Source: Planotetraspora sp. A-T 1434 (GTDB taxonomy: Bacteria > Actinomycetota > Actinomycetes > Streptosporangiales > Streptosporangiaceae). From it: a DNA stretch of 64,000 nucleotides. How positions within the stretch are numbered: the stretch's first letter is position 1; every line of letters starts with the position of its first letter. This document shows positions 1,494 through 54,795 of this stretch, piece by piece. Both the position numbers and the translations under genes were made by a program. The DNA is taken from positions 1 to 64,000 of the forward strand of contig NZ_JAOEGB010000019.1 in the NCBI RefSeq assembly GCF_025420585.1. Direction: 5' to 3'. Under the pieces are notes generated by a model. The model was not told the DNA's origin. It saw only the letters and a list, made by a program, of their open reading frames with translations, and did no database searches.

Positions 1494-3137
1494 TCAGATC
1501 GGTCGTGAGTCCGTCGTGATGTCGAGTTGCCGCAGCCTGTCGCGGTCGATCTTGCCTCCGGCCGTGCGGGGCAGGCTGCTGACGGTCGTGAAGGTCACGG
1601 GCGGCATGGCCTTGCCGAACCACCGGCGCAGGGCGGCACGCCAGGCGGCCGGGGCAGCGCCGTCGGCCGCCTGTTTGCGCGGCACGACGTAGGCCGCCAG
1701 ACTCGCGACCAGCCGGTGCCTGCCGGAGACGGCCACCACGGCGCACTCGGCGACGGACTCGTGCGCCGCGAGCGCGGCTTCCACATCGCCCAGTTCGAGC
1801 CGGATGCCGTTGAACTTCACCTGGAAGTCCTGACGTCCCTCGAATTCCAGCAGGCCGTCTCCGTTCCGGCGGCCGCGGTCGCCGGTCCGGTAGTACCGGC
1901 ACGGGTCGTCCGACCCGGTCGGCGGCCGGAACGCGGCCCGCTCCCCCGCGGCCGCGCCGGCGTACCCCGGAGTGATGTACGGACTGCGGATGACCAGGCT
2001 TCCGGTGACCCCGTCCGGGCAGGGCCGGTCCAGCTCGTCCAGCACGAGCACCTCCCGCCCGGGGATGGGCCGGCCGATCGGCACCCTGCCGCGGAGGTCG
2101 CCGGACGGTGTGTCCCCCACCTCGTGCCAGGTCGCCAGGATGGACTCGGTCGGCCCGTAGAGGTTGACCAGCCGGATCGCGGGCAGCGCCGAACGCAGCC
2201 CGCTGACCAGCTCGCCGCTCAGCGGCTCGCCGGCCAGGAGCAGGTGATCGAGCCGGTACGGCCCTCCCGCGGGTCCGAGGCCGTTGATCCCCTCCAGGAG
2301 GCGGCGCGCGAAGCTGGGAACGGTCTGCAGATGCGTGATCCGTTCCGCGGCGAGCCAGTCGACGATCTTCTCCGGATTCGCCCTGATCCGGGAGGGCACG
2401 GGACACAGCGTCGCACCCGACATGAGCGGCGCGAACATCTCCACCAGGCTCGCGTCGTATCCCGGCGCCGCCCATTGCGCCACCCGGCAGCCGGGCCCGA
2501 TCCGGAACTCCTCAGCGAACCACGACATGAACTGCGCGAAGGTCCGATGCGTCTGGGAGATCCCCTTGGGCCTCCCGGTGGACCCGGAGGTGTAGGCCAC
2601 GTACATCAGATCGTCGAGCCCGCCGGCCGTCGGCGCGGGCGGCGGCCACGACTCGGCGACGGACCCGTGGGTGGCTTCGCCGGATGGGAGCAGGTCTTCC
2701 ATGTGGAGGACCGAGCCGTTGAGGGTGTCGCGATACCAGGTGACGAGGTCGTCTTCTCCTCCGCCAGGCTGTGCTCCGCCGCCGTCGATCACGAGGATGG
2801 CCGGGCGGAGGTCCTCCAGCACTGCCCTGCCCCGTCCCCCGGCGCCGCCGGTGTCGAGGCAGAGCAGGTAGGCGCCGGCCGCGAGCACTCCGAGGACTGC
2901 CGCGGCCTGGCGTGGTCCGGGGTCGAGCCGCACCGCCACCGGCCGGCCCTCGACGTCTCCAGCGGCTTTCAGGGCGGCGGCGACCGTTGCCCCCTGGCGC
3001 ATCAACTCCAGGTAGGAGACGTTCTCGCCGCCCTGGGAGACCGCGACGGCGTCCGGACAGGTTCCGGCGCGCCGCCGTACCAGCTCATGGACCGGCCGCT
3101 CGACGGACGCGACGGCCGTTGCCGCGCGTTCGGTCAC
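1494..3137 (-). CDS. Free-standing adenylation enzyme (AMP-forming)
   Basis: 547 residues with all core adenylation motifs: YTSGSTGRPKG near 180, NLYGPTES near 325, YRTGDRG, then KFNGIRLELGDVE and the C-terminal catalytic lysine in PRTAGGKIDR. No PCP domain follows, so it would load a carrier protein in trans, the nearest candidate being the A-PCP didomain at 33.5-35.3 kb. By eye the specificity-pocket residues read about D-A-V-Q-L-G-L-I-L-K, which I cannot assign to a substrate. I chose GTG at 3137 because it forms a GTGA overlap with the preceding gene's stop; the reading frame extends further upstream inside that gene. Substrate unknown. Confidence 0.9.
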   Translation of the reverse strand: MTERAATAVASVERPVHELVRRRAGTCPDAVAVSQGGENVSYLELMRQGATVAAALKAAGDVEGRPVAVRLDPGPRQAAAVLGVLAAGAYLLCLDTGGAGGRGRAVLEDLRPAILVIDGGGAQPGGGEDDLVTWYRDTLNGSVLHMEDLLPSGEATHGSVAESWPPPAPTAGGLDDLMYVAYTSGSTGRPKGISQTHRTFAQFMSWFAEEFRIGPGCRVAQWAAPGYDASLVEMFAPLMSGATLCPVPSRIRANPEKIVDWLAAERITHLQTVPSFARRLLEGINGLGPAGGPYRLDHLLLAGEPLSGELVSGLRSALPAIRLVNLYGPTESILATWHEVGDTPSGDLRGRVPIGRPIPGREVLVLDELDRPCPDGVTGSLVIRSPYITPGYAGAAAGERAAFRPPTGSDDPCRYYRTGDRGRRNGDGLLEFEGRQDFQVKFNGIRLELGDVEAALAAHESVAECAVVAVSGRHRLVASLAAYVVPRKQAADGAAPAAWRAALRRWFGKAMPPVTFTTVSSLPRTAGGKIDRDRLRQLDITTDSRPI

Positions 3138-4624
3138 GACACCGATGCCCCCGCCGTCTTCGCCTTGCCGTTGGCCGCCGGCTTGCCGTTGGCCGGCGCC
3201 TGGCTCTTGCCGGACGGCTCTGCCTTCGGCGCAGGCGTCTCGGCCGGCGCCCACGGCGGCGGGGTCTGCGGCGGCTCCGGCTTGTCCTTGGCCCAGGGCA
3301 GCGCGTTCAGCAGGATGCGCAGCAGCATCGGGGGGCGCATGAGGGCTTCGGGGCCGTCGATGAGACCGGCTCCGCGCATGTAGGCGGCCGCGACCACGCT
3401 GTCACGCGTGGCGGCGGTCTGCACCAGGCCGAGGAAGGCCTGGGCCATCCGCACCTGCAGCGGGCGCTCTCCCTCGACGCCGGGGAAGCTCAGGTCCACG
3501 ATGTTGGTCATCTCCCACGGCTGGTCGATGACGTTGCTCGCGAGGTCCTTGAAGTACTGGAACGGGTCGGGCACCGCGCCGGTGTGCAGGTGCTGGCGGA
3601 TGACCAGCGCCCCGAGGGCCGCGACGGTCATGCCCTGGGCGTACACCGGGTTGAAGCAGCACACCGCGTCGCCGGTCACGAGCAGCCCGTCGGGGAAGCG
3701 GTTCAGCTTCTCGTAGCGGCGGCGCAACGTCGTGGGGAAGCGGAAGGCGACCGGCTCGTCCAGGGGCTCGGCGTGCTGGAGCGCGTCGTAGATGTCCGGC
3801 ACCGCCAGGGATTTGATCCACTCGTACAGGCCCTCCTGGTCGGTCGGAGGGTGGTCGCCGAGGATGCCGTAGGTCGTCAGCTCGACCCGGCCGCCGTCCG
3901 TTTTCGTGAAGATCGCTCCACGGGGCAGCGCGGGCGAGGCGACGGGGTTGATGGACAGGTCGCCGTGGTAGGGGTCGGCGGTCAGCCGGTAGTGCTGGGT
4001 GACGTACCCCAGGCCGATCTTCTTCCGCTCCTCCTCCACCCGGGGATAGCCCAGGGCCTCCAGCCAGATGGGGGTGCGCGAGCCGCGGCCGGTGGCGTCC
4101 ACCACCAGGTCGGCGCTGATGATCTTCTCCGCGGCGCCGTCCTCAAGGGGCTGCACGCGCACGCCGGTGACGCGGCTCCGGTCGACGGTGGTCTCCAGGC
4201 CGAGGATGTCGTGCCGCTCAGCGAAGACGACGTTGGGGAATGCCCTCGTCCGCTCGCGGATGTGGTGCTCCAGCTTTGGCCGGCTGGAGGCCACGCAGAT
4301 CAGTCCGGCCTGCTGCTGCTTGAGCCGCTTGCCGTTGAAGTACCAGCGCACGTGGCCGGCGAGGTCTCCGGTCGGCACGCCGTCCGCGAACAGTTCCTGG
4401 GTGATGCCCGGATACATCTCCTCCATGGCCTGCTGACCGCGGGCCAGCAGCCCGTTGATGTGGCGGCTCTGCGGGCAGCCACGGCGGGGCCCCTCCACCC
4501 CGATCAACACATCGCGGTCGATGATGAGCACTTCGTCATAGGCATCGGCGAGCACCCTGGCCGCGAACAGCCCGGCGAGGCTTCCACCGAGCACCACCGC
4601 ACGGGTCTTTGCCACATCACCCAT
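3134..4624 (-). CDS. FAD-dependent monooxygenase/epoxidase
   Basis: 496 residues. An N-terminal FAD-binding Rossmann motif, VLGGSLAGLFAARVL (about 11-25), is followed by the acidic ribose-binding end of strand 2 (IIDRDVL). The second FAD motif GDAVCCFNPVYAQGM lies near residue 320. The layout fits single-component FAD monooxygenases related to polyether epoxidases (MonCI/Lsd18) and squalene epoxidase rather than flavin halogenases: I see no halogenase WxWxIP motif. The C-terminus is a low-complexity Pro/Ala/Lys tail of about 60 residues. It starts with a good GGAGG site and is first in the operon with the A and C proteins, so it probably oxidises the product or an intermediate. Substrate unknown. 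Confidence 0.82.
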   Translation of the reverse strand: MGDVAKTRAVVLGGSLAGLFAARVLADAYDEVLIIDRDVLIGVEGPRRGCPQSRHINGLLARGQQAMEEMYPGITQELFADGVPTGDLAGHVRWYFNGKRLKQQQAGLICVASSRPKLEHHIRERTRAFPNVVFAERHDILGLETTVDRSRVTGVRVQPLEDGAAEKIISADLVVDATGRGSRTPIWLEALGYPRVEEERKKIGLGYVTQHYRLTADPYHGDLSINPVASPALPRGAIFTKTDGGRVELTTYGILGDHPPTDQEGLYEWIKSLAVPDIYDALQHAEPLDEPVAFRFPTTLRRRYEKLNRFPDGLLVTGDAVCCFNPVYAQGMTVAALGALVIRQHLHTGAVPDPFQYFKDLASNVIDQPWEMTNIVDLSFPGVEGERPLQVRMAQAFLGLVQTAATRDSVVAAAYMRGAGLIDGPEALMRPPMLLRILLNALPWAKDKPEPPQTPPPWAPAETPAPKAEPSGKSQAPANGKPAANGKAKTAGASVS

Positions 4625-21554: not shown

Positions 21555-21600
21555 GGCGCGGACCCCCGACAGTTCAGACGTTCAGAAGGGAGAAGGCCCG

Positions 21601-25480: not shown

Positions 25481-27100
25481 TCAGCGGAGCTCGACGTCGG
25501 CGCGCGTCGCGGCGTCCACGAACTGGCCCCGGGACAGCGCCGCGGCCACCAGCTCGATTTCGTCGGCCATGTAGCGGTCGTGCGCCAGCGTCGGCGCCAG
25601 CGACCGCACCATGTCGTAGGTCGCCTTCCCGGCCGGGCTGAGCTTGTCGTACCTCCCGGACAGGTCCACCGCCTGCGCCGCGGCGAGGAACTCAACGGCG
25701 AGGATCCGGGTGTTGTTCTGCAGCACCCTGCGCGCGTTGCGCGCCGCGATCAGGCCCATGCTGACGACGTCCTGGTTGTCGCCGTTCGACGGGACGCTCT
25801 GGGTGCTGGCGGGGCCGATGGTCCGGTTCTCCGCGACGAGCGCGGTCGCCGGATACTGCGCGCCGGCGAAGCCGCTGTTGAGTCCCGGGTCGCCCGCGAC
25901 GAGGAACTCGGGCAGGCCGTTGCTGAGATGCCGGTTGAGCAGCCGGTTCGTCCGACGCTCGGAGAAGACGCCGAGCTGGGTGAGGGCGATCGTGAGGTAG
26001 TCCATCACGAAGGCGACCGGCTGGCCGTGGAAGTTGGCCCCGTGGAAGACTTCCTTGCCCTCGAAGACGAGGGGGTTGTCGTTTGAGGAGTTGAGCTCGA
26101 TCTGGAGCGTTGCGGACGCGTGGTAGACGGTGTCCCTGACGGCGCCGACCACCTGGGGGATCGCCCGCAGGGTGTACGCCTTCTGCAGGTAGACCTCCGT
26201 CCGCTGGACTCCGCTTTCCGAGCCCGGCCGGTCGCCGCTGAGCTCCCGCCGCAGCTGGACGTGCTCCACGGCCAGCTCGCTGCCCTGCAGCAGGGCGCGC
26301 ATGTTGGCGGCGGAGTCGATCTGCCCACGGTGCGGGCGGGCCACGTCGTGCCCGTCGGCCACGAACGGGCTGGTCGAGCTCTGCAGGACCTCGCAGATCA
26401 GAGCGGTGACGATCTCGGCCTGCCGGACCTGGTCGAGCGCCCGGCCCACGAGCAGGCAGCCGAGCCCGGTCATCGCGGAGGTCCCGTTGATGAGCGAGAG
26501 CCCTTCCTTGAACCGGAGCTGCAGCGGCTCGATGCCGAGCTCCCGCAGCACCGGCCCGGTCTCGACCCGGCGGCCGTCCCGCAGGACGTAGCCCTCCCCG
26601 ATGATCGTGGACGCGACGTGCGCCAGCGGCGCGAGGTCGCCGCTGGCCCCGAGCGAGCCGATCTCGGGGATGGCGGGGGTGACGCCGAGGTTGAGATAGA
26701 GCGCGAGGCGCTCCAGCAGCTCGGGCCGCACCGCCGAGTAGCCCTTGGACAGGGCGTTCAGCCGCGCCGCGACGATGGCCCGCGCCTCGTCCTCGGCGAA
26801 GACCGGGCCGACTCCCGCGCTGTGGCTGCGGACCAGGTTGGTCTGCAGCTCGATCTCCTTCGCGGTGTCGACCAGCATGTAGATCATCTCGCCGTAGCCG
26901 GTGGTCACACCGTAGACGGGGATGCCCTGCCGGATGATGTCCTCGAACAGTTCCCTGTTGGCCGCGGCCTTGGCCAGCGCCGAGGGGGCCACGCCGCACA
27001 TGACCTGGTTTTCGGCGATCCGCCGTACGGTTCCGACGTCCAGGGTCTCACCATCGAAATCGACTGACGTCGCGGTCTCGACCAGAGTCAAATCTCTCAC
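25481..27100 (-). CDS. Tyrosine 2,3-aminomutase, MIO family
   Basis: 539 residues of the aromatic amino-acid ammonia-lyase/aminomutase family. The MIO-forming Ala-Ser-Gly is in IGSLGASGDLAPLAH near 152. The active-site lid reads YGVTTGYGEMIYM near 63 and LVRSHSAGVG near 90, both typical of actinomycete tyrosine aminomutases such as SgcC4 of C-1027, rather than of histidine ammonia-lyase. ATALVAENRTIGPASTQSVPSNGDNQ-type C-terminal core is intact. Reaction: L-tyrosine to beta-tyrosine. A phenylalanine or lyase activity cannot be fully excluded. GTG 27100 has only a weak ribosome site. An operator box lies 170 bp upstream. Confidence 0.86.
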   Translation of the reverse strand: MRDLTLVETATSVDFDGETLDVGTVRRIAENQVMCGVAPSALAKAAANRELFEDIIRQGIPVYGVTTGYGEMIYMLVDTAKEIELQTNLVRSHSAGVGPVFAEDEARAIVAARLNALSKGYSAVRPELLERLALYLNLGVTPAIPEIGSLGASGDLAPLAHVASTIIGEGYVLRDGRRVETGPVLRELGIEPLQLRFKEGLSLINGTSAMTGLGCLLVGRALDQVRQAEIVTALICEVLQSSTSPFVADGHDVARPHRGQIDSAANMRALLQGSELAVEHVQLRRELSGDRPGSESGVQRTEVYLQKAYTLRAIPQVVGAVRDTVYHASATLQIELNSSNDNPLVFEGKEVFHGANFHGQPVAFVMDYLTIALTQLGVFSERRTNRLLNRHLSNGLPEFLVAGDPGLNSGFAGAQYPATALVAENRTIGPASTQSVPSNGDNQDVVSMGLIAARNARRVLQNNTRILAVEFLAAAQAVDLSGRYDKLSPAGKATYDMVRSLAPTLAHDRYMADEIELVAAALSRGQFVDAATRADVELR

Positions 27101-29458: not shown

Positions 29459-30307
29459 TCAGCGGCCGTGGCGGTCGAGGACCTGGGCGAGATCGTCGGC
29501 GATGGACGCGGCGAGCGCGGGCAGGTGGTCACGCAGGAAGAAGTGGCCGCCGGAGAACAGGCGGAGGCCCAGGAAGTCGTCCGTCTGGTCCTTCCATTCG
29601 ATCAGGCTCTCCGGCGGCGCCACGATGTCCTCGGTTCCGCCGAAGGCGGCCACCGGCACCGGAAGCGGCGGCTCGGGGCGGTAGACGTACGAATGGCACA
29701 GGGTGAAGTCCGCCCGGGCGACGGGCAGCGTCAAGGCGAGGGCGTCCGGATCTTCGGCCATCTCCGGCGGCAGCCCGCCCAAAATGCGCAGCGCGGCCAC
29801 GAACTCGTCGTCGGAGAGGGCTGGATCGGGCATGCCGATCTCCGCCGCGCCCCGGATCGGCCACGACGCCAGGGCGAGCAGCACGGGGAGCGTCCCGCCG
29901 TTTCCGTTGCCGTTTCCGTTTCCGTGGCCGGCCTGGAACGCCCTTGTGAGGCGGTAGCTCAGCATCGCCCCCATGCTGTGCCCGAAAAGGGCCCACGGCA
30001 CGCCGTCCCCGGCCAATCCCCCGGCCGACTCGCCGGCCAAGCCCCGGGCTCGGTCCCCGGACGCCTCGCGGGCCAGCGTCTCGGCGAGCCACCCGGCCGC
30101 CTGCTCGCAGTCGGTGAACGCGGCCTGCCGGTGCCGCCCCTGACGGCCCGGGAGCCGTATCGCCCGAAGCTCCACCCATGACGGCAGATGCCTCGACCAC
30201 TGCCGGAACATCGAGGCTCCGCCGCCCGCGAACGGCAGGCCGTACAGGCGGACCCGCGCGGCGGGCCGGGGCTCGAACGTCACGTACCACGAGGACTGCG
30301 TCACCAT
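29459..30307 (-). CDS. Type II (editing) thioesterase
   Basis: 282 residues of the alpha/beta-hydrolase thioesterase family. FAGGGASMFRQW lies near 32 and the nucleophile motif GHSMG near 115, with a GGTED loop and SGGHFFL near 250 supplying the catalytic Asp and His. Such proteins remove misprimed acyl groups from carrier proteins. Two in-frame low-complexity insertions are visible: GNGNGNGNGG, encoded by a hexamer run at about 29898-29928, and a Gly/Leu/Ala repeat before the nucleophile. ATG 30307 has GGAGCGG upstream. It is last in the A-PCP/radical SAM/dehydrogenase operon, after a 146-bp gap. Confidence 0.9.
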   Translation of the reverse strand: MVTQSSWYVTFEPRPAARVRLYGLPFAGGGASMFRQWSRHLPSWVELRAIRLPGRQGRHRQAAFTDCEQAAGWLAETLAREASGDRARGLAGESAGGLAGDGVPWALFGHSMGAMLSYRLTRAFQAGHGNGNGNGNGGTLPVLLALASWPIRGAAEIGMPDPALSDDEFVAALRILGGLPPEMAEDPDALALTLPVARADFTLCHSYVYRPEPPLPVPVAAFGGTEDIVAPPESLIEWKDQTDDFLGLRLFSGGHFFLRDHLPALAASIADDLAQVLDRHGR

Positions 30308-30453
30308 TTGCCGCTCCGGCTCCTTCGACCCGACTGCAAGACCTATCCGCTGGACGAGACTCTCGACCGGACGCTCATCCGGACCCGCGGCGCTCGGAAC
30401 CATGGCGAGACCCGGCGGTCACCTGGTCCCAGCCGCTCATCCGGACAGGCGGG

Positions 30454-31593
30454 TCACAGCAGGGAGTGGCCGATCATCTCTTTCATGACCTCGGTCGTGC
30501 CGCCGTAGATGGTCTGCACGCGGGTGTCGACGAACGCCCGGGCCACCGGGAACTCGCGGACGACGCCGTAGCCTCCGTGCAGTTGGAGGCAGCGGTCCAC
30601 CACTTTCTGGCACAGCTCGGTGTTCCACCACTTCGCCATCGCCGCCTCTTCGGCGTCGAGCCGGGCGGCGGCGTGCTCGGCGACGCAGCGGTCGGTGAAC
30701 GACCGGGCCACCGTGAGGGCCGTCGCCAGCTCGGCGAGCACGAACCGGTTGTGCTGGTGCTGCCCGATGGGCCGGCCGAAGACCTCGCGGCCGCGGCAGT
30801 ACTCCAGCGTGTCCTCGAACACCTTTTCCGCCGCGGCCAGCGCCTCGACGGCGATCATCATGCGCTCCTGCCGGAGGGTGCGCATCATCGCGGCGAAGCC
30901 TCGTCCTTCCCTGCCGAGCAGGTTCCCGGCCGGGACCTCCACGTCGTTGAAGAACAGCTCGACCGTGTCCATCGCCCGCATGCCGATCTTGTCCAGCTTC
31001 CGGCCCCGCTCGAACCCGGCCCGGCCGGACTCCACGACGAACAGGCTGGCATCGGACGCCCTGGCTCCCGAGCCGGTTCGGGCGACGACGAGGACGAGGT
31101 CGGCGACGGCGCCGTTCGAAATGAAGGTCTTCTGGCCGCTGATGACGTACGTGTCCCCGTGGCGCGTCGCCTTCGTGCGCAGGCGCTGCACGTCGCTGCC
31201 GGCGTCGGGCTCGGTGATGGCGATGGCCGTCACCAGCTCGCCGGAGCAGAACCCGGGCAGCCAGCGCCGTTTCTGCTCCTCGGTGGTGAGGGTGCGCAGG
31301 TAGAGACCGGCTATCTCGTTGTGCAGGGACAGCGCCGGGGCGTGCACCCCGGCGCGTGCCAGCTCCTCCGCCAGGATCACGTGGTGGAGGTAGTCGGGGT
31401 CGCCGCCCCCGCCGTACTCGGTGTCGACGTCCATGCCGAGCAGGCCGTACTGTCCCGCTTTGAGCCAGATGCCCCGGTCGGCCACGCCCTCCTCCTCCCA
31501 CCGTGAGTAGTGGGGAAGGATCTCCTTGCTCACGAACGTCCGGACGAGGTCGCGGAACGCGTCGTGGTCCTTGGTGAAGATGTCACGGCGCAT
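30454..31593 (-). CDS. Acyl-CoA dehydrogenase-family flavoprotein
   Basis: 379 residues, a standard acyl-CoA dehydrogenase. FAD/substrate motifs are AIAITEPDAGSD near 120 and TFISNGAVADLVLV near 155; LHGGYGVVREFPV precedes the C-terminal IYGGTTEVMKE. The usual catalytic Glu of IYEGT is Gly here, as in long-chain and isovaleryl-CoA enzymes where the base sits on another helix. Its start overlaps the radical SAM stop by 11 bp and the A-PCP gene heads the operon. It may therefore desaturate a PCP-bound aminoacyl group, as prolyl-PCP dehydrogenases do; this is inference. Confidence 0.88.
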   Translation of the reverse strand: MRRDIFTKDHDAFRDLVRTFVSKEILPHYSRWEEEGVADRGIWLKAGQYGLLGMDVDTEYGGGGDPDYLHHVILAEELARAGVHAPALSLHNEIAGLYLRTLTTEEQKRRWLPGFCSGELVTAIAITEPDAGSDVQRLRTKATRHGDTYVISGQKTFISNGAVADLVLVVARTGSGARASDASLFVVESGRAGFERGRKLDKIGMRAMDTVELFFNDVEVPAGNLLGREGRGFAAMMRTLRQERMMIAVEALAAAEKVFEDTLEYCRGREVFGRPIGQHQHNRFVLAELATALTVARSFTDRCVAEHAAARLDAEEAAMAKWWNTELCQKVVDRCLQLHGGYGVVREFPVARAFVDTRVQTIYGGTTEVMKEMIGHSLL

Positions 31594-33517
31594 CGAGCGC
31601 TCCGGCCACCGTGACGTCCGGGACCACCGGCGCCCAGGTCGGGAGGATGTCGCGGAGCCGGTTCATCATCACCTGGCAGTAGGCGGCGTTGTGATCCAGG
31701 CTTCGCCGCCGGGGGTAGGGCATCTTGTGCCGGCCGCCGTGGTCGACGCGCAGCCGGACGGGGTCGACGTCCAGAAGACCCTCGATGGGCTCGAACGACG
31801 TCAGCAGCTCGGCCGCCGCCGCCGGGAGCTCGATCTCGAACTCGTAGCGCCCGCGGGACACCACGCGCAGGTGCCGCAGCGGCACCGTCGGCTCGGTTAC
31901 CGCCTCGCGGTACACGTACGGCCTGGCCAGCAGATCGAGCTCGAACGCCATGCGGACGCGCGGATCGGCCAGCCAGCCCTGCTCGGCCAGGAAGTCTTCC
32001 AGCAGTCTGTCCATCTCACCGCGGTGAGACTGGAGCACGTAGTGCAGGACCTTGCCGATGTTGTTGATGTCGTAGTTGCCGAGGCTGCTCACCGAGTCGG
32101 CGAAGAACCGGCAGATGTCGGTGTCCGTCCGGGTCTTGTAGTAGTCGGCGGCCCGGCACAGGAAGTCGACATACGAGCAGACGCCCGACCGGTCGAGCTG
32201 CCGCGCGACGTAGAAACCGGCGCGGGCGTTGTAGAGGCTGATGACGGCGTAGTAGAACCAGGCCCCGGCCTGGAACTCCTCCTGGGTCACCCAGTTGGTC
32301 GCCACGACCACGTCGGCCTCGGCCACGGGGTCGTCCACCCGGACGGTGACGATGCCGAGGGACTCCCGGCGTTCGTACATCGGCGTGTTCCGCAGGAGGA
32401 GCTGCGGATAGGCCACGACCGCGTCCGCTCCGGTGGCGCACAGCTTGGCGATGCCCTCCTGGAAGGACTGCAGCGTCTCGCCCGGCAGCGGCCAGATCAG
32501 CTCGGTGTAGGAGCTGATCTTCTTCTCGCGGAGCTGGAGCTGCAGCTCGACATAGGTCGACTCCTTGATGTTGGCCCGCTGCACGAGGTCGAGCGCCTGC
32601 GGGCTCAGCGTCTGCAGCGACACCGGCTGGCTGGTCAGCATGCCGCCCTCGACCAGGATCTCGGTGATCTCCGTGACCCGGTCCGGCCGGTTCTTGGCCG
32701 CCTGGATGGTGACCATCATCGGGTAGCCGTACCGCTCCTTGCACTCGACGAGATGCCTGGTCAGCTCCACGTCACGGGGCAGCGCGCCCCAGTTGGCGTC
32801 GGCGACGAAGATGCTCTCGATGCCGTGCTCGCTGATCCAGGTCAGGTCCGCCTTCACCCGGTCGAGCTCCCAGCGGTGGACCTTGTCGTTGGTCGCCGCG
32901 CCCCAGTAGCAGTACGAGCAGCGGAACGGGCAGCCGCGGTTGGTCTCCACGACCGCGAAGACGTACTCTCCCCCGTCGAAGATCCCGGCGGCGAAGGGCG
33001 ACGGGATCTCGTCCAGCTCCTTGATCCGGGTGGGCTTGTCGGTCGTCACCAGCTCGCCGTCCGACCAGAAGCTCACCCCCGGCACCCGGCTGAAGTCCGG
33101 GTCCGCGCCGGCCAGTTCGCGAAGGTACGCCGTGAACGGCTGCTCGCCCTCCCCGTTGCAGACCACCACGTTCTCCCAGGACGGGGGGACGTATTCGGCG
33201 GTGTAGTTCATCACCTGCGGGCCGCCGAGGATGAAGTGCGCGTCCGGGCGGAGCCGGACCAGCTCGTCCAGCACCTCCTTCATCCGGCGCATGTTCCACA
33301 GGTAGCAGCTCATCGCGTACACGTCGGCCTCGGCCGCGAGCATCAGCGCGACCAGGTCGTCCACCGAGGTCCGCACCTCGGGCGCGTGGATGGTGAAGTG
33401 GCAGCTCCGCGCGACGTCCGGGTCCTGCTGCGCGTACGCCTGAAGGTAACCGGCGGCCAGCGGAAGGGTGTTCGCGTAGAGGGGCAGCTCCAGGAGGCTG
33501 ACCTTCAGGCTTCTCAT
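31583..33517 (-). CDS. Cobalamin-dependent radical SAM enzyme
   Basis: 644 residues. An N-terminal B12-binding-type domain (about 1-150; [24 protein letters not shown]) is followed by the [4Fe-4S] motif [14 protein letters not shown] near 190-203 (CxxxCxxC). The SAM barrel includes VADANWGAL and [10 protein letters not shown], and there is a long C-terminal region. This layout matches class B methylases and relatives used in natural-product pathways (KedN5-like). ATG 33517 forms an ATGA overlap with the A-PCP gene, and the acyl-CoA dehydrogenase follows. C-methylation of a PCP-bound amino acid is the likely role, but some relatives do other radical chemistry. Confidence 0.9.
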
Positions 33518-35337
33518 GCGTCCGTCCCCGTCGTCTCGGCGATCGAAGCCGCCAGCTCGTGCAGCACGTCGTATTCGAAGACGTCGTCGGCCCCGAGCCG
33601 GATGCCGCGTTCCTTGGCCCGCCTCGCCAGCCGCATCGCGTGCAGGGAGTCGCCGCCCAGGTCGAAGAAGCTGTCCTCGCGGCCCACCGAGCTGATCTGG
33701 AGCACCTCGCACCACAGCTCGCTGAGGACCCGTTCGGTGTCGGTACGGAAGACCTTGCCGCCGGCGCCGGCGGACTGGCCGGGCAGCGGAATCGCGGCCA
33801 GCGCCTTGCGGTCCACCTTCCCGTGCGGGGTCAGCGGCAGCGCGTCCAGCAGCGTCACCGTCTGCGGCACCATGTAGTCCGGAAGCCGCTCGGTCAGGTC
33901 GCGCCGTAGCCGGCCGACCTCGGGCGGATTGGCGGGATCGGCGGGGACGACGTAGCCGACCAGCCGGTCACCGCGGCCGTGCTTGACGACGGCCGCTTCG
34001 CGCACCTCGGCGAGCTGGTTGAGCGCCGTCTCCACCTCGCCCAGCTCGATGCGGAAGCCCCGCAGCTTCACCTGGTCGTCGGCCCGGCCGAGGAAGCTCA
34101 GCGAGCCGTCGGGCAGCTCGCGGACCAGGTCGCCGGTCGCGTACATGCGGGCGTCCCCGTCGAGGACGAACGGGTCGGTGACGAACCGCTCGGCCGTGAG
34201 GTCGGGCCGGTTGAGGTAGCCGAGGGCCACACCGGTGCCCCCGACGTGGAGCTCCCCGACCTGACCCGGCGGCACCGGCCTGCGCCGCTCGTCCAGGACA
34301 TAGGCCCGCATCTTCGGGAGCGGCAGCCCGATCGGAGGCGCGTCGTCCCCCGGCGTGCCGTCCTGCGCCGCGCCGTCCCGCGCGGGGGCTCTGGTCACCT
34401 CGGCGTAGGTCGCGACCACGGTCGTCTCGGTCGGGCCGTACAGGTTGTAGACCTTGAACGGCAGGCCGGCCGGCGGATAGCGATGCAGCTTCTCGCCGCC
34501 GGTCAGCAGCGCCCGCAGCGCCCCGCCGTACGTCGTCCAGGGCTGGTCGAACATCTCGACGGCGAGCGCCGTCGTGAGGAAGCAGACGGTGATGCCCTCG
34601 GCGGCCAGCCACCGGGCGAAGTCGACGGGCGAGTCGGGCAGGCGCCCCTCGACGAGGCAGAGCGTCGCGCCGTTCGCCAGGCACGGCCAGACCTCCAGCG
34701 CCCAGGCGTCGAACGACGGCCGCGCGAGCTGTGTGATCCGGTCGCCCGGCCGCACGTCGAACGTCTGCCGATACCAGGCGACCAGGTTCGACACGCCGTC
34801 GTACGGCACCAGCACGCCCTTCGGCGTTCCGGTCGAACCAGAGGTGTAGACGACATAGAACAGGTCGCCCGGCGCAGGCTCGACGCTCTCATCAGGCTCT
34901 TCGTCTCCGGCCAGCGCCTCCTCCACGGCGAGCACCTCGGCCACACCGCCGGCGTAGCGATCGGCCAGGTCCGCCCGCGTGATGACCAGTGGAGCGCCGG
35001 AGTCGGCGAGGATGGCGGCCAGCCGCGCATCGGGCTCATCGACGTCGGTGCCCACGTAGGCGCCGCCCGCGAGAAGCACCGCCAGGGCGGCGACGACCAG
35101 CTCGGGCGAGCGCTCCAGAGCGAGGACCACGAGCGTTCCACGGGTGACCCCCCGGCCGCGCAGGACCTCGGCCATCCGGCAGGAGCGTTCGTAGAGCTCG
35201 GCGTAGGTCAGCACCGTGCCCGCGCGGACGATCGCCGGCTGATCCGGCTGCACCTGCGCCCACCACCCGACGTACGCCGGAACGGTCGCATGCGCGGCGC
35301 GTACGGCAGTGCTCAACTCGGTCAATTCTGCCTCCAA
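33514..35337 (-). CDS. NRPS adenylation-PCP didomain
   Basis: 607 residues. Adenylation domain about 1-515: [15 protein letters not shown] near 165, [10 protein letters not shown] near 303, [24 protein letters not shown], and the catalytic Lys in [15 protein letters not shown] domain about 525-600, with the phosphopantetheine Ser in [10 protein letters not shown] near 562. By eye the pocket residues read about D-A-L-F-L-G-L-V-V-K; I cannot assign an amino acid. It is first in a tightly overlapped operon with the radical SAM enzyme, acyl-CoA dehydrogenase and thioesterase. It thus loads and carries the amino acid these enzymes modify. The PPTase at 45.7 kb would activate it. Confidence 0.93.
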
Positions 35338-35825: not shown

Positions 35826-36689
35826 ATGACGGTTGTGCACGGGTCACTCGAAGCTCGGACGGCGGCTCCCGGGCCTTCGGACGAGCATGGGCCGCTTCTG
35901 GACGACGACACGGTCGCCGCCTATCTCGGGCGGATCGGCGCGCGGCGGCCGGAGCGGGCGACCGCCGGCGCGCTGCGTGAGCTGCACGAACGGCATCTCA
36001 TGTCCATCCCCTTCGAGAACATCGACTTCCACCTCCGCAAGCCGATATACATCGGCGCGGACGCCATCGAGAAGATCGTCGGCAGGCGGCGCGGCGGCAC
36101 GTGCTACGAGCTCAACGGGGCCTTCTTCGAGCTGCTGCGCGCCCTGGGCTACGACGCCACGGTGCTCGCCGGGCGGGTGGCCGAGGACGGCGAGCTGGGG
36201 CCGGTGCTCGGCCACATGCTCCTGCGGGTGGTGGCCGAGGACTCTCCGGAGCCGTGGCTGGTGGACGTCGGCTACGGCCGCGGCGCGCGCCACCCGCTGC
36301 GCTTCGACGCGCGTGAGCCGCAGGACGACCCGCAGGGCACGTTTCAGCTCTTCGAGGGGCCGTTCGGCGACCTCGACCTGCTGCGCGACGGGGTGCACCA
36401 GTACCGCATCGAGACCCGTCCCCGCACGGTCGCCGACTTCCTCCACATGTGGTGGTGGTATCTCCATTCGGGCGAGTCACCCCACATCACGCACCTCTAC
36501 TGCACGGTCCCGACGGCCACCGGTCGCGTCACGATCAGCGGAAACACTCTGATCGTCCGGGAGACCGGGCGGCGGACGAAGCAGGTGATCGAGGACGACG
36601 ACGAGCTGCGCGCGGCCTACCGGACCTGGTTCGGCCTGGAGATCGACGAGCTCCCGCCGCTGCCCGAATCCCGGGCGGCCGAGGCATAG
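35826..36689 (+). CDS. Arylamine N-acetyltransferase family protein / possible amide synthase
   Basis: 287 residues with a complete NAT catalytic triad: Cys in RRGGTCYELNGAFF near 92, His in GHMLLRVV near 130, Asp in LVDVGYGRG near 147. SIPFENIDFHLRKP near 60 is also characteristic. The family acetylates arylamines from acetyl-CoA; cluster-encoded members such as RifF release polyketides as macrolactams. Here an arylamine (anthranilate or an aminosalicylate) is the predicted building block of neighbouring genes. Acylation of that amine or amide formation are both reasonable. It is convergent with the aryl-CoA ligase gene. Confidence 0.92.
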   Translation: MTVVHGSLEARTAAPGPSDEHGPLLDDDTVAAYLGRIGARRPERATAGALRELHERHLMSIPFENIDFHLRKPIYIGADAIEKIVGRRRGGTCYELNGAFFELLRALGYDATVLAGRVAEDGELGPVLGHMLLRVVAEDSPEPWLVDVGYGRGARHPLRFDAREPQDDPQGTFQLFEGPFGDLDLLRDGVHQYRIETRPRTVADFLHMWWWYLHSGESPHITHLYCTVPTATGRVTISGNTLIVRETGRRTKQVIEDDDELRAAYRTWFGLEIDELPPLPESRAAEA

Positions 36690-36726: not shown

Positions 36727-38319
36727 TTACTCGTCCTGGAGGGCGCGGCGGTTTAGCTTGCCGGAGGCGGTCTCGGGGAGCTTGTCGACGAAGCGGATGT
36801 CACGGGGATACTTGTGCGGCGCGAGCCGCGCCCGGACGAAGCTCTGCAACTCCTCGGCGGACACGTCGTCGCGGGTCACCACGAACGCCCTCGGCAGGGT
36901 CAGCCCGTCGACCTCGTAGCCGACCACGGCGCACTCCACCACGGCCGGATGTCCGATGAGGCAGTTCTCGACCTCGGCGGGCGCCACCCACCGGCCGCCG
37001 ACCCGCAACAGGTCGTCCGCCCGGCCCTTGTAGTAGAAGAAGCCGTCCGCGTCCCGGCTGAACAGGTCGCCGGACCGCACGGTGTGCTCGGCGACGAAGG
37101 TCCGGGCCGACTTCTCCGGCGACTGCCAGTATTCCAGCGCCGCCGTCTCGCCGGTGATCTCCAGGAGGCCCACCTCGCCGTCGGGCACGGACGCGCCATG
37201 CTCGTCGACGACCCGGACGTGATATCCCGGCACCACCTGGCCGAGGCTCCCCAACCGGACCTGGCCCGGCCGGTTGCACACGTACCCGTGGAACATCTCG
37301 GACGAGCCGATGCCGTCGATCACCTCGACGCCGAAGGTGTCGAGCCACCGGCGGTGCAGCTCCAGCGGCAGGGCCTCGCCCGCCGAGATGCACACCCGGA
37401 TCGAGCTGAGGTCCTGCTCGGACGCCTTGGGGTGGGCGACCATGGCGCTCATCATGGTGGGCACGTTCACGAGGATCGTCGGCCGGTGCTTGGCGATCAG
37501 CTCGAAGATCTTGTCCGCTGTGCTCCGCTCGGGGAACACGATCCCGGCCGCGCCGACGCCGAAGGGGAACAGCGCCGTCATGTTGTTCGCGTAGCCGAAG
37601 AAGAGCTTGGGCACCGGCAGCACCACGTCGTCGGGACCGATGTCCAGCACACCGCGGGCGAACCACTCGAAGCTCAGCGCCGTGCTCCGGGCGGCGATGA
37701 CGCAGGCCTTGGGCGTGCCCGTGCTGCCCGTGGTGAACCGCCAGATGGCGACGTCGTCCGGGGTCGTGGCGGCGGGCTCCAGCTCGGCCGGCTGTGCGGC
37801 CGCCAGAGTCTCGAAGTGGTGCTCGCCCTCCCGCAGTTCGTCCGCGGGCACGCCCACCACCAGCAGGTTCGACACGCCCGCCGCGCGCAGCTTCTCGAGC
37901 GTCGCCGCGTCGGCCACGACGACGGCCGGGGCCGCGTAGTCGGCGTAGAACCGGTAGTCCTTCGGCTGGAGGTAGGTGTATGCCTCGGCCGTCACCGCGC
38001 CGATCTTGTGCACGCCGTACCAGGTGGCGACGAACTCGACGCCGTCGCCGAGCGCGAGCAGCACCCGGTCGCCCTGCCGTACGCCGAGATGGCGCAGCAC
38101 GTTACCGGCCCGGTTCGCCAGCGCCCGCAGCTCCGCGTAGGTCGTACGGCCCGCGGGGGTGATCAGGGCGGTACGGTCGCCCTCGTTGCGGTCGAGGAAG
38201 TGCGACGCGATGTTGAACTCTCGAGGCAGGTCTCCGTAGCGCAACAGGCCGGCGGAGTGCCGGTCACCCGGGTCTCCTTCGAGCAGCGTCGAGCGGGTCT
38301 CGGCCACATCGCCCCTCAT
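36727..38319 (-). CDS. Aryl-CoA ligase (benzoate-CoA ligase family), copy A
   Basis: 530 residues of the AMP-forming acyl-CoA synthetase family closest in style to benzoate-CoA ligases and antimycin AntF. FTTGSTGTPKACVIAAR lies near 195, GIGSSEMFHGY near 335 and DLLRVGGRWVAPAEVE near 435, and the C-terminal Lys motif is ETASGKLNRRAL. It should activate benzoate or anthranilate-type acids as CoA or carrier thioesters. ATG 38319 is chosen for its GAGGAGGGA site. It is divergent from the fused paaAB gene, with an operator box and a 17-bp triplicate between them. A paralogue lies at 53.0-54.6 kb. Confidence 0.9.
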   Translation of the reverse strand: MRGDVAETRSTLLEGDPGDRHSAGLLRYGDLPREFNIASHFLDRNEGDRTALITPAGRTTYAELRALANRAGNVLRHLGVRQGDRVLLALGDGVEFVATWYGVHKIGAVTAEAYTYLQPKDYRFYADYAAPAVVVADAATLEKLRAAGVSNLLVVGVPADELREGEHHFETLAAAQPAELEPAATTPDDVAIWRFTTGSTGTPKACVIAARSTALSFEWFARGVLDIGPDDVVLPVPKLFFGYANNMTALFPFGVGAAGIVFPERSTADKIFELIAKHRPTILVNVPTMMSAMVAHPKASEQDLSSIRVCISAGEALPLELHRRWLDTFGVEVIDGIGSSEMFHGYVCNRPGQVRLGSLGQVVPGYHVRVVDEHGASVPDGEVGLLEITGETAALEYWQSPEKSARTFVAEHTVRSGDLFSRDADGFFYYKGRADDLLRVGGRWVAPAEVENCLIGHPAVVECAVVGYEVDGLTLPRAFVVTRDDVSAEELQSFVRARLAPHKYPRDIRFVDKLPETASGKLNRRALQDE

Positions 38320-38463
38320 GGGTCCCTCCTCGAAACGGCGGCTCGAACGACCGGCCGGCGAACTCACCGCACCAGTCCCCCATCGTCCGACGGGATCAAT
38401 TCGGGGCGCTTCTTCTGAAATGCCGTTTTTCACCGCAGGGGCGGCGCGGCGGGACGGCACATC

Positions 38464-38479
38464 GCAATACGGGAGATGC
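38464..38479 (+). promoter_or_regulatory. 16-bp cluster operator box, copy 7
   Basis: GCAATACGGGAGATGC matches the consensus closely. It is placed almost midway between the divergent aryl-CoA ligase (145 bp) and fused paaAB (134 bp) starts, so it could control both. Confidence 0.78.
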
Positions 38480-38551
38480 GGGGCGCGAACCGCCCGGATG
38501 AAGCTGGTTCAGGCGTTCGGCGGAAGGAGACCGCCTCGGCGAGGCAAGCAC

Positions 38552-38602
38552 CGTGACCTGGAAATCTGCGTGACCTGGGAATCTGCGTGACCTGGGAATC
38601 TG
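38552..38602. repeat. Three 17-bp tandem repeats before paaAB
   Basis: CGTGACCTGGRAATCTG occurs three times head to tail (38552, 38569, 38586); the second and third are identical. The array ends about 10 bp before the paaAB start and overlaps the region expected to hold its ribosome-binding site and promoter. Confidence 0.92.
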
Positions 38603-38612
38603 GGGGAGCTTC

Positions 38613-40079
38613 GTGGGAGGTCGAAAGGTGGACGTCCGGGAGGGACCGTCGCCGCTGGGAACCGCGCAACTGCTCGCGGAGGTCGACGCCGCCGAGCGTG
38701 AGCTCACGGCACACGACCGGTCGTCGGGCGAGGGCGGCGCCGCCGAGCCGCCGGCCGGTGACGCCGGCGAGTCCGCGCCGGCCCGGTTCGAAGCGCTGAT
38801 CGCGGCCGACAAGCGGATCGAGCCGAGAGACTGGATGCCGGACGGCTACCGCAGGAGCCTCCTCCGGCAGATCGCCCAGCACGCGCACTCCGAGATCGTC
38901 GGCATGCAGCCGGAGACCAACTGGATCACCCGTGCTCCCACTCTCAAGCGCAAGGCGATCCTGATCGCGAAGGTGCAGGACGAGGCGGGCCACGGGCTCT
39001 ACCTCTACTCGACCGCGGAGACGCTCGGGGTCGACCGCGAGTCGTTGCTGGACGCGCTGCACGCCGGCCGCCAGAAATACCTGTCGTTCATCAACTATCC
39101 GACGCTGACGTGGGCCGACGTCGGGGCGCTCGCGTGGCTGACGGACGGCGCGGCCGTCGTCAACCAGGTCTCGCTCTGCCGCACGTCCTACGGCCCGTAC
39201 GCCCGCGCCCTCGTACGCATCTGCCGGGAGGAGTCCTTCCACCACCGGCAGGGCTTCGACCTGCTGTACGAGCTGTCGCGCGGGACGGCCGCCCAGCGGA
39301 AGATGCTGCAGGACGCGGTGGACCGGTGGTGGCAGCCCGCCCTGGCGATGTTCGGACCGCCGAACGACAGGTCCACCCACTCCGACCAGTCGCTGGCATG
39401 GCGGATCAAGCGGGCCACCAACGACGAGCTGCGGCAGCGATTCGTCGACATGTGCGTCCCCCAGGCGGAGGCCCTCGGAGTCGTCCTCCCGGATCCCGAG
39501 CTCCGGTGGAACGCCGACCGGGGGCACTACGACTTCACGCCGCCCGACTACGAGGAGCTCATGCGGGTCGTCGCGGGGAACGGCCCGTGCAACCGCCAGC
39601 GTCTCGCCCACCGGCGCCGCGCCCACGAGGAAGGCGCCTGGGTCCGCGAGGCCGCGACCGCCTACGCCGCCAAACACGGCCTCTCCCACCCGGGCGGCCC
39701 CCCGGCGTACGGCCCATCCGCGGATGAGGCGGATGAGGCGGTTCAGGTGGATGAGGCGGTTCAGGTGGATGAGGCGGTTCAGGTGGAGGGGAGCGCTTCG
39801 GCTGACTGGCCGCTGTGGGAGGTCTTCGTGCGCCCGCGCCGCGGGTTCAGCCACGCGCACGCGGGCAGCCTGCACGCGGCGGACGCCGCGATGGCGCTGC
39901 GGAACGCCCGCGACCTCTACACCCGCCGAAGCGAGGGCGTGTCCCTCTGGGTGGTCCCCGCCGCCACGATCACCGCCTCCAGCCCGGACGAGAAGGACGC
40001 CTTCTTCGACCCGGCGGCCGACAAGGTCTACCGGCATCCGTCCTTCTTCCAGCCGCCGGAGGGGGTCGAACACCTGTGA
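38613..40079 (+). CDS. Fused PaaA-PaaB: epoxidase catalytic subunit plus PaaB
   Basis: 488 residues. Residues about 45-365 are PaaA, the di-iron subunit of phenylacetyl-CoA 1,2-epoxidase, with metal-ligand motifs [13 protein letters not shown] near 120 and [15 protein letters not shown] near 205. Residues about 392-488 are a complete PaaB ([20 protein letters not shown], then [18 protein letters not shown]). They are normally separate proteins; here they are joined by a linker in which an 18-bp unit encoding DEAVQV is repeated three times (39732-39785). In antimycin, AntHIJKL homologues oxidise anthranilyl-thioester, and the tryptophan-to-anthranilate genes here support that role over phenylacetate catabolism. 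GTG 38628 is an alternative start. Confidence 0.9.
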
Positions 40080-40858
40080 GCAGCTCCGATCTGTACGGGT
40101 ATGTGCTGGGGCTCGGGGACGACGCGCTCATCGCGGCGCAGCGCATGGCGGAGTGGGTCACGCGGGCGCCGCAGATCGAGGAGGACGCGGCCCTGGCCAA
40201 CATCGCGCTGGACCTGCTCGGCCAGGCCAGGGCGCTGCTCTCCTACGCCGGGGAGCTGGAGGGCCTCGGCCGGAGCGAGGACGACCTGGCCTATCTCCGC
40301 GACGAGCACGAGTTCCGCAATGTCCAGCTCGTCGAGCTGCCCAACGGCGACTTCGCGACGACCATCGCCAAGATGCTGTTCTTCGCCGCCTACCAGCACC
40401 TTCTCTACACGGGACTGTCCGCCGCCGACGATCCGGCGCTCGCGGGGATCGCGGGGATCGCGGCCAAGGCCGCCAAGGAGACGGCCTACCACGTCGATCA
40501 CGCCGTCACGTGGACGCTCCGGCTCGGCGACGGCACCGACGAGTCGCACCGCCGGATGCAGGCCGGAGTGGACGAGGTGTGGCCCTTCACGCACGAGCTG
40601 TTCGAGCCGCCCCCGGCCAGAACCGGGCACATCAAGACCACCGGGGACATCGAGACCACCGGGGACATCGAGCCGGGCGCCCTGCGCGGGCAATGGCTGC
40701 GCCTCGTCGAGCGCGTGCTGCGCGACGCGACACTGCGCCGCCCCGAGGACGGCTGGAGGCCGGCGGGCGGCCGCCGGGGCGTCCACACCGAAGCGTTCGG
40801 CTACCTCGTCGGCGAGATGCAGTCGCTGCATCGGGCACACCCCGGAGCCCGCTGGTGA
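40076..40858 (+). CDS. PaaC-like epoxidase structural subunit
   Basis: 260 residues matching PaaC, the structural partner of Paa[23 protein letters not shown] at the N-terminus (first 20 diagnostic), [15 protein letters not shown] near 40 and [20 protein letters not shown] near 130. GTG 40076 overlaps the paaAB stop (GTGA), keeping subunit synthesis coupled. An in-frame 18-bp duplication at 40635-40670 adds the short repeat TTGDIE. It needs PaaA for activity, as it lacks the full set of di-iron ligands. Confidence 0.9.
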
Positions 40859-41442
40859 GCGAGAGCGCGCGGGCCGCCGCGTTACGCGATCCTGAGCTCC
40901 GCGTGCCGTTCGCCGAGGCACTCGACCTCGTGCGGGCGGCCGTCGCCGCCGTACGCGATCCGGAGCTCCGGGTGCTGTCCATCGAGGAGCTCGGCATCCT
41001 CCGGGACGTACGGCTCGGCCCCGGCGGCCGGGCGGTCGTCACGATCACTCCCACCTATCTCGGCTGCCCGGCCCTCGACGTGATCCGGGCCGACATCGCC
41101 TCGGCGGCACGGGAGGCGGGCGCCGCCGAGGTGGAGATCGTCACCTCGCTGTCGCCGCCGTGGACGACGGACTGGCTGACCGACACGGCGAAGGCCAAGC
41201 TGTCGGCCGCGGGCATAGCGCCGCCCGGGTCTCCGCCGGGCGTGCGGGTGCTGCCGCTGGTCGGGGTGCCAGTGGTCGGGGTGCCGGTGGTCGAGCTGCC
41301 GGTGGTCGGGCTGCCGGTGCGCTGCCCGCGCTGCGGGTCCTCCGACACGGCGGAGATCGCCCGCGCCGGTTCCACGGCGTGCAAGGCGCTGCGGGCGTGC
41401 CGCGCCTGCCGTGAACCGTTCGAGCACCTGAAGGACCACTGA
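40855..41442 (+). CDS. PaaD-like iron-sulfur assembly/maturation protein
   Basis: 195 residues. An MIP18/DUF59-type domain occupies about 30-115 (VRDPELRVLSIEELGILRDV; TITPTYLGCPALDVI). The C-terminal cysteine cluster CPRCGSSDTAEI followed by CRACREPFEHLK is typical of PaaD. Between them lies an unusual four-fold 15-bp repeat (41257-41316) encoding near-copies of VVGVP. PaaD is needed for maturation of the epoxidase complex. GTG 40855 overlaps the paaC stop. Confidence 0.9.
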   Translation: MSESARAAALRDPELRVPFAEALDLVRAAVAAVRDPELRVLSIEELGILRDVRLGPGGRAVVTITPTYLGCPALDVIRADIASAAREAGAAEVEIVTSLSPPWTTDWLTDTAKAKLSAAGIAPPGSPPGVRVLPLVGVPVVGVPVVELPVVGLPVRCPRCGSSDTAEIARAGSTACKALRACRACREPFEHLKDH

Positions 41443-54624: not shown

Positions 54625-54652
54625 ATATCCCGCGGAAGCAGCCGGTCCGGCG

Positions 54653-54691
54653 GGCTGGCAGGAAGCGGTTACGCGCACGCAACTTGCTGCC
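54653..54691 (+). promoter_or_regulatory. 39-bp promoter box, copy 3
   Basis: It begins GGCTGGCAGGAAGCGG and ends GCAACTTGCTGCC, 104 bp before the tryptophan dioxygenase start and only 28 bp after the aryl-CoA ligase stop. Arms and spacing match copy 2 exactly. Confidence 0.8.
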
Positions 54692-54795
54692 CGATGAACG
54701 CCTGGCTCCGGGAACGGGCCACCCGCACAGTTGACGTGTGGGAGGAAGCACAAGGAAATCGCGATGACACCTTCGCAGAACAAGAGGTCAGGCGT

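Follow-up and report, generated by a model that had tools for sequence, protein, structure and literature searches.

An adenylation-carrier, cobalamin radical SAM and acyl-CoA dehydrogenase gene set predicted to tailor branched aliphatic amino acids in several biosynthetic contexts

What is made by a gene set that encodes, side by side, an amino acid-loading didomain, a cobalamin-dependent radical S-adenosylmethionine (SAM) enzyme, an acyl-CoA dehydrogenase (ACAD)-fold flavoprotein and a type II thioesterase (TE)? This question is raised by a 64,000-nucleotide stretch of DNA from Planotetraspora sp. A-T 1434 (hereafter the window; positions 1-64000 of contig NZ_JAOEGB010000019.1 in a 7.8 Mb genome), in which the gene for an adenylation-peptidyl carrier protein (A-PCP) didomain is followed by those for a radical SAM enzyme related to CysS (rSAM), an ACAD and a TE (Table 1). 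A preliminary description of this DNA had suggested that an amino acid loaded on the didomain is both methylated and desaturated there. With moderate confidence, we read the set as a self-contained building-block factory, which would load a branched aliphatic amino acid, methylate it, oxidise it and release it.

Layout and conservation of the gene set

Four genes lie at 29459-35337 on the minus strand, where the preliminary description had placed them, and all are intact as judged from their Pfam domains, a coding-type GC content at third codon positions and their key residues. The A-PCP gene has candidate TTG starts at 35337, 35325 and 35316. The longest open reading frame (ORF) of the rSAM gene begins at 33715; because homology to CysS begins only at residue 65 of this frame, we prefer the ATG at 33517 as the likely start, and this ATG overlaps the stop codon of the A-PCP gene as ATGA. 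The 5' end of the ACAD gene overlaps the 3' end of the rSAM gene by 11 nt, whereas the TE gene probably starts at 30307, leaving 146 nt to the ACAD gene. Hence the overlapped operon described earlier holds for its three genes, and the TE gene is not overlapped. The overlaps in the window, together with one at the rSAM/ACAD junction of a Kutzneria locus (G210, see below), suggest translational coupling.

Genome contigs were scanned with the rSAM alone, which gave 17 loci whose neighbours were then read out, and a further search of seven Kutzneria genomes added two rSAMs near 50% identity (50-52%; G210 and G208). Overlapping weaker matches were dropped in the neighbour tables and in the comparison of relatives' clusters. 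An A-PCP gene directly before and an ACAD gene directly after the rSAM gene were observed in 16/17 loci from the rSAM-only scan. When only rSAMs at least 50% identical are counted, which leaves out L020 (a 27% partial match with neither an A-PCP nor an ACAD neighbour) and other matches below 50%, the three genes are adjacent and in the same order in 17 of the 18 loci. A TE gene accompanies this trio in 15 of the 17 trio loci (all but L013 and G210). In L019, a gene of the OCD/mu-crystallin family (OCD) is situated between the ACAD gene and that of a 29% identical TE, and G210 contains A-PCP, rSAM, ACAD (58% identical, directly after the rSAM) and OCD genes in this order. Across the close loci L004-L019, the GGDS motif of the PCP, CxxxCxxC of the rSAM and a Glu in helix G of the ACAD are each present in 16/16, and GHSMG of the TE in all 15 of these loci that have one. 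Only 15-49 ACAD matches were detected per genome in eight of the genomes (7.5-12 Mb), so an ACAD gene adjoining the rSAM gene by chance should be rare. An ordinary fatty-acid operon was rejected because of the constant A-PCP and rSAM partners.

The set was found in about six contexts: a large cluster in Streptosporangiaceae (to which the genera concerned presumably belong), loci in Streptosporangium saharense and Micromonospora wenchangensis, a Phytohabitans locus, kutzneride-type nonribosomal peptide synthetase (NRPS) clusters of Kutzneria sp. 744 and two Actinomadura, and NRPS loci in Actinocrispum and G210. In Phytohabitans suffuscus (L008:7338-21899), two KAS III-like genes flank the set, a flavin halogenase-like gene and a polyketide synthase (PKS) come next, and an acyl-transfer use of the tailored amino acid is possible there. 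The surroundings of G208 (L054/L055) include a second rSAM gene (34%) as well as genes which by eye are of P450 and terpene type.

Predicted chemistry of the set

The closest solved relative of the rSAM is CysS (9n1b; phmmer E 1e-173, ORF residues 65-702 aligned to CysS 2-634), with TokK next. Identity to CysS is 42% (265/632 aligned residues), and the homology is full-length, including the C-terminal domain; together with B12-binding and radical SAM domains, CxxxCxxC and Trp75, this marks an enzyme of the CysS/KedN5 type. With the residue numbers of CysS taken from PMC12846815 (11/11 tested residues in register in the CysS chain), Trp75 (under the cobalamin), Trp206 and Phe238 were found to be kept in 16/16 loci. 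By contrast, the residues around the aminobenzoyl head of the CysS substrate are replaced (W188F; W271 to T, A, S, N or V; S273Q in 15/16; F485 to I or L), and further differences are H371Y and H617N (Q in one locus). Because W188, W271 and S273 are replaced in all 16 loci, we regard the rSAM as not isofunctional with CysS and read it as CysS-like radical-methylation machinery that would act on another, smaller acyl group. The substrate of CysS is held on a peptidyl carrier protein (PMC8992657; PMC12846815), and the earlier suggestion of C-methylation on a carrier is supported to this extent by homology and conservation. What the rSAM has in common with CysS, TokK and KedN5 is therefore the full-length homology, the three kept aromatic residues and, in CysS, a carrier-bound substrate, whereas it differs from CysS in its head-group contacts, in its A-PCP, ACAD and TE partners and in the aliphatic substrate that we propose.

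Two assignments were rejected for the rSAM. An aminobenzoate substrate, as for CysS, was rejected because of the replaced head-group residues and of Asp235, which is kept in the A domain. Membership of the KedN5 subfamily was not accepted either, as the rSAM reaches 320.8 bits on the NCBIfam KedN5 model (cutoff 700) and is a relative rather than a member. Among plasmids, an rSAM search gave 44 records, all below 60% identity (26.5-37% among the best 15). Sinorhizobium medicae plasmid pMl4 (L002) carries a CysS-like rSAM gene, whose product is 34-37% identical to the window rSAM; the NRPS/PKS cluster around it also includes genes with the annotations 3-dehydroquinate synthase II and 4-hydroxyphenylacetate 3-hydroxylase. 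This rSAM is perhaps an aryl-ether methylase like CysS, located on a rhizobial plasmid.

Pocket codes of the A domains were read by alignment. The window and 11 loci (L004-L013 and L018) share the code DALFLGLVVK, L014-L017 have DGLFLGVMLK, and L019 and G210 have DALFLGNVVK. As a check on the method and on a proline substrate, we read the A domains beside two RedW-like ACADs, which gave DLFYLALVCK and DLFYIAWVCK, codes of the pyrrole type. The A domain in the KtzB position, part of an isoleucine-chlorinating set, has the code DAFFLGMTFK, and its F278, L299 and G301 are common to all three set codes. Compared with reference codes for Leu, Ile and Val, the set codes look Leu/Ile-like, and we infer a branched aliphatic amino acid as the substrate, with Val, Leu and Ile not distinguished. 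Loading of an amino acid by the A-PCP, as claimed before, is thus supported by homology and conservation (domains and GGDS), and the pocket code, then called unfamiliar, can be refined to an aliphatic-looking one distinct from those of the proline-to-pyrrole type.

The solved structures closest to the ACAD are 2pg0 (an acyl-CoA dehydrogenase) and the mitochondrial long-chain ACAD, and its identity to KtzA and to RedW-like proteins is 30-33%. It has a Glu in the helix-G position, as do KtzA and the RedW-like proteins, and none in the C-terminal position; these are the two places where the catalytic Glu of ACADs is found. The model of prolyl-PCP dehydrogenase (RedW; NF045652) gives it 214.6 bits (cutoff 650) and the AcrC model 292.6 bits (cutoff 640). 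The two RedW-like ACADs mentioned above score 416-422 bits on the RedW model, themselves below its cutoff, and a survey with this model detected 2/197 genomes at E 1e-120 and none above the cutoff.

These data bear on whether the set works as in clorobiocin biosynthesis, where the same enzyme types occur (PMC11218499): proline would be loaded, the ACAD would produce pyrrole-2-carboxyl-PCP and the rSAM would C-methylate the pyrrole, as CloN4, CloN5, CloN3 and CloN6 do. However, DALFLGLVVK agrees with DLFYLALVCK at only 4/9 read positions and DGLFLGVMLK at 2/9, the set A domain is about 31% identical to the RedW-neighbour A domains, and the ACAD matches AcrC better than RedW. The two KAS III-like genes of L008 might recall acyl transfer of the CloN2 kind, whereas kutznerides are not known to contain a pyrrole. 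With the two RedW-like loci standing in for CloN, the proline/pyrrole reading was rejected on pocket code and ACAD family, and we consider it the least probable of all the rivals weighed here.

In the building-block reading, the A domain would activate a branched-chain aliphatic L-amino acid and load its own PCP. By analogy with CysS, a first SAM would yield methylcobalamin and a second the 5'-deoxyadenosyl radical, which would abstract hydrogen from the side chain of the PCP-bound substrate at an unactivated carbon, to which the methyl group would be added. Before or after this methylation, the helix-G Glu would remove the alpha proton and hydride would pass to FAD, which would leave the thioester in its alpha,beta-dehydroaminoacyl (enamine/imine) form. 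The TE would then release the product and, where present, an imine-reductase-type enzyme of the OCD/mu-crystallin family may restore the amino acid, the net change being +CH2 and -2H. That the ACAD may desaturate the loaded amino acid, as had been proposed, is consistent with a base in place and with its position next to the rSAM. An A-PCP and a GHSMG-containing TE beside tailoring genes, the arrangement of a carrier-tailor-release system, are present in the window and in 15/17 trio loci, and the TE probably releases a free amino acid. OCD genes occur near the set in L014, L016, L017, L019 and G210, and within the DNA searched only with DGLFLGVMLK or DALFLGNVVK sets (L015 is an 8.6 kb contig). 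The finishing step may therefore differ between the groups with and without it.

A different fate of the radical is conceivable, in which the rSAM closes a ring without adding carbon: from Ile, a side-chain radical and the ACAD-made enamine would give a cyclopropane with a net change of -2H. This would suit the resemblance of the codes to Ile/Leu codes, and Ile minus 2H is isomeric with 2-(1-methylcyclopropyl)glycine. Ring-forming B12-dependent radical SAM enzymes do exist (PMC13331322), but the nearest named relatives of the rSAM, CysS, TokK and KedN5, are methylases, and the residues that in CysS adjoin the cobalamin and the reacting carbon are conserved, which makes ring closure of this kind quite unlikely.

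The preliminary description had called the trio an unrecognised assembly. This is not supported, since CloN4, CloN5, CloN3 and CloN6 of clorobiocin apply the same logic to proline, with an A domain, a PCP, an ACAD-fold oxidase and a B12-rSAM-type methyltransferase acting on one carrier-bound amino acid to give the 5-methylpyrrole-2-carboxyl unit (PMC11218499). The on-carrier logic is thus already known from CloN3-6; it is the substrate code and the ACAD branch that differ here, as seen through the RedW-like stand-ins. The clorobiocin system also differs in having separate A and PCP proteins, in methylating an sp2 carbon and in transferring its product via a second carrier rather than by type II TE release. 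NikP1/NikP2-type units resemble the set in modifying an amino acid on a didomain with type II TE release (PMC4147253), but they perform hydroxylation instead of methylation and oxidation.

A possible link to kutznerides

Kutzneria sp. 744 carries the set and an OCD gene at 10107645-10114504. A single FMN-binding gene intervenes between them and two tryptophan halogenases of the kutzneride cluster, and the same 50 kb include genes of the position and family expected for KtzA, KtzB, KtzD and KtzE. Ktz names were assigned by position, family and reviews, and some of these identities are presumed. Kutzneride-type clusters were compared after dropping matches below 32% identity and repeat matches per 1.5 kb. 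In Actinomadura rupiterrae, the set and its OCD gene occur together with homologues of KtzE (57% over 1585 aa) and KtzR (77%). One ferredoxin-like gene separates the set from the KtzE homologue; the first A-PCP of this homologue shares 62% identity with its KtzE counterpart, against at most 52% elsewhere in the genome. The code read for the first A domain of the KtzE-type protein is DAYLWGGVFK in Kutzneria and A. logoneensis and DAYFWGGAFK in A. rupiterrae. A KtzD-type halogenase, which cryptic chlorination by KtzABCD would call for, accompanies the set in only 1/5 genomes (Kutzneria sp. 744); no KtzD match was detected at E 1e-10 in the A. rupiterrae genome or in the three others.

It has been described that kutznerides contain 2-(1-methylcyclopropyl)-D-glycine, with KtzB/KtzC/KtzN as its proposed origin (PMC4147253), and that KtzD chlorinates isoleucine en route to an allocoronamic acid building block (PMC12615548). 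The KtzD/KtzA product (allocoronamoyl thioester) and the kutzneride residue (methylcyclopropylglycine) are different residues. KtzA, KtzB, KtzC and KtzD are similar to the set in that a branched aliphatic amino acid is handled by an A domain, a carrier and an ACAD-fold flavoprotein, and they are encoded in the same Kutzneria sp. 744 cluster; unlike the set, they include a halogenase in place of the rSAM, their ACAD is 31-33% identical to those of the set, and their product is not the reported kutzneride residue. The parts of the open-licence PMC literature that were covered yielded nothing on a set of A-PCP, rSAM, ACAD and TE, nor on such a set in connection with methylcyclopropyl residues or kutznerides.

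Val + CH2 - 2H adds up to C6H11NO2, which is also the composition of 2-(1-methylcyclopropyl)glycine; therefore, one methylation and one two-electron oxidation suffice for a Val-derived route. Free methylcyclopropylglycine occurs in Micromonospora. For kutzneride-type clusters, the best candidate product would be 2-(1-methylcyclopropyl)glycine from Val, which would be reloaded by the first KtzE A domain, a link that we draw from gene content and stoichiometry. We tentatively extend it to a broader and rather doubtful proposal: the set may be a halogenase-free route in which carrier-bound Val is converted to 2-(1-methylcyclopropyl)glycine by the CysS-type rSAM and the ACAD and, in NRPS clusters, the product is finished by an OCD-type imine reductase. 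The kutzneride residue may really originate from this route, and the same module may serve enediyne and PKS clusters.

Several observations weigh against these readings, either of the set as a whole or of its part in kutznerides. No TE is present in L013 and none was matched within 60 kb in G210, and G208 has a 50% identical rSAM without an A-PCP partner and with no match to the window ACAD in 60 kb. OCD was not matched in the window, in the 11 other DALFLGLVVK loci or in the extra stretches searched, and the code groups may differ in substrate. The pockets resemble Leu/Ile codes more than Val codes, while the methylcyclopropyl route needs Val. Acceptance of the methylcyclopropyl residue by the first A domain of KtzE is our supposition, and the assignment to KtzB/KtzC/KtzN in a review (PMC4147253) weighs on it. 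Finally, another ACAD 54-58% identical to that of the window occurs elsewhere in 6/8 genomes, so a role on CoA thioesters would also fit the ACAD sequence.

The last point also favours a reading in which a C-methylated amino acid (of the tert-leucine or methyl-leucine/isoleucine type) arises through the rSAM by itself and the ACAD is only an operon partner, acting on another substrate or on CoA thioesters. CysS itself needs no dehydrogenase to form sec- and tert-butyl ethers (PMC12846815). Against this, the ACAD gene is the next one in 17/18 loci and in about six contexts and overlaps the rSAM gene in the window and G210, and on balance we judge the rSAM-only reading unlikely. Kutznerides contain a tert-butyl hydroxy acid, which a tert-leucine product would feed after deamination by OCD.

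Two other genes of Kutzneria sp. 744 were noted. A second B12-binding radical SAM protein is encoded near the set, at the margin of the kutzneride cluster (L017:3624-5546), with no counterpart of at least 32% identity near the A. rupiterrae set, and a second KtzD-like protein (54%; G001:C1:10043471-10044385), perhaps the piperazate halogenase KthP, is encoded about 24 kb from KtzD.

The enediyne-type host cluster

Past the window, the next 13 kb (64801-76700) contain an enediyne-type cassette with genes for a 1927-aa PKS (KS, AT, KR, DH), a 4HBT_2 thioesterase, a flavin reductase, UnbV_ASPIC and two DUF1702 proteins. The domain order of PksE is given as KS/AT/ACP/KR/DH (PMC4599437); in the cassette PKS, Pfam gave no PP-binding hit, and no enediyne-named NCBIfam model was among the matches listed. 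The contig nevertheless unites the PKSE, hotdog thioesterase, UnbV and DUF1702 genes by which an enediyne cluster is recognised, and in Planomonospora sp. ID67723 and Streptosporangium sp. KLBMP 9127, the two relatives whose DNA was retrieved to a sufficient distance, homologous cassettes likewise adjoin this gene set. Window positions 77-63921 are the peripheral part of an enediyne-type cluster, which is largely conserved in the Planomonospora and Streptosporangium relatives. Because the window belongs to this cluster, the set most probably contributes to a peripheral enediyne unit, to which the same chemistry would give an acyl or aminoacyl group. We know of no enediyne with a matching peripheral unit.

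Such a location, and the match to the KedN5 model, could also mean that the rSAM acts on another part of the enediyne, as KedN5 reportedly does on the naphthoate of kedarcidin, and that the A-PCP and ACAD have a separate function. However, the same gene order is found in NRPS, PKS and other contexts, and among the other loci compared, only L041, from a genome with a window-type cluster, matched the small genes of the cassette; we therefore think this very unlikely.

Among the neighbours of the set (Table 1), the arylamine N-acetyltransferase-like protein is a possible user or attaching enzyme of the set product. A beta-tyrosine branch is represented in the window by the aminomutase, stand-alone A and condensation domains and a hydroxylase; the substrate of the stand-alone A domain is probably beta-tyrosine, its code resembling that of SgcC1. 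Two regions of the window (36727-42578 and 53044-55743) contain two benzoate-CoA-ligase-family genes, a gene that combines PaaA and PaaB domains, after which come PaaC-type and FAD/2Fe-2S reductase genes, and a tryptophan 2,3-dioxygenase-like gene. In Planomonospora, the last of these is followed by the gene of a kynureninase-like protein (L035:17315-18655; recognised by eye, with a Pfam score below the cutoff), which suggests a kynurenine-derived aryl-CoA branch in the cluster.

Table 1. Features of the window, with the gene set in the first four rows
Feature	Position	Strand	Basis and remarks
A-PCP didomain	33514..35337	minus	Pfam AMP-binding (254 bits), AMP-binding_C, PP-binding; code DALFLGLVVK
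Cobalamin-dependent radical SAM C-methyltransferase, CysS-like (predicted)	31583..33517	minus	Pfam Radical_SAM and B12-binding; phmmer to CysS
ACAD-fold flavoprotein	30454..31593	minus	Pfam Acyl-CoA_dh N, M, 1; catalytic Glu in helix-G position
Type II thioesterase	29459..30307	minus	Pfam Thioesterase; longest ORF up to 30403
Arylamine N-acetyltransferase-like acyltransferase	35826..36689	plus	Pfam Acetyltransf_2; neighbour conserved in Streptosporangiaceae set
Tyrosine 2,3-aminomutase	25481..27100	minus	TIGR03832, 947.7 bits (cutoff 501)
HpaB-type hydroxylase	21481-23220		beta-tyrosine branch
Stand-alone A domain	1494..3254	minus	Pfam AMP-binding; code DAVQLALILK
Stand-alone condensation domain	77-1468		beta-tyrosine branch

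The proposed function of the set would extend on-carrier B12-radical methylation to aliphatic amino acids and would provide a portable genetic marker for methylated, oxidised building blocks. The gene set also flags an enediyne cluster with an unmatched peripheral unit, common to at least three genomes. In kutzneride biosynthesis, the mismatch between the allocoronamoyl product of KtzD/KtzA and the methylcyclopropylglycine of the final product would become testable by one knockout.

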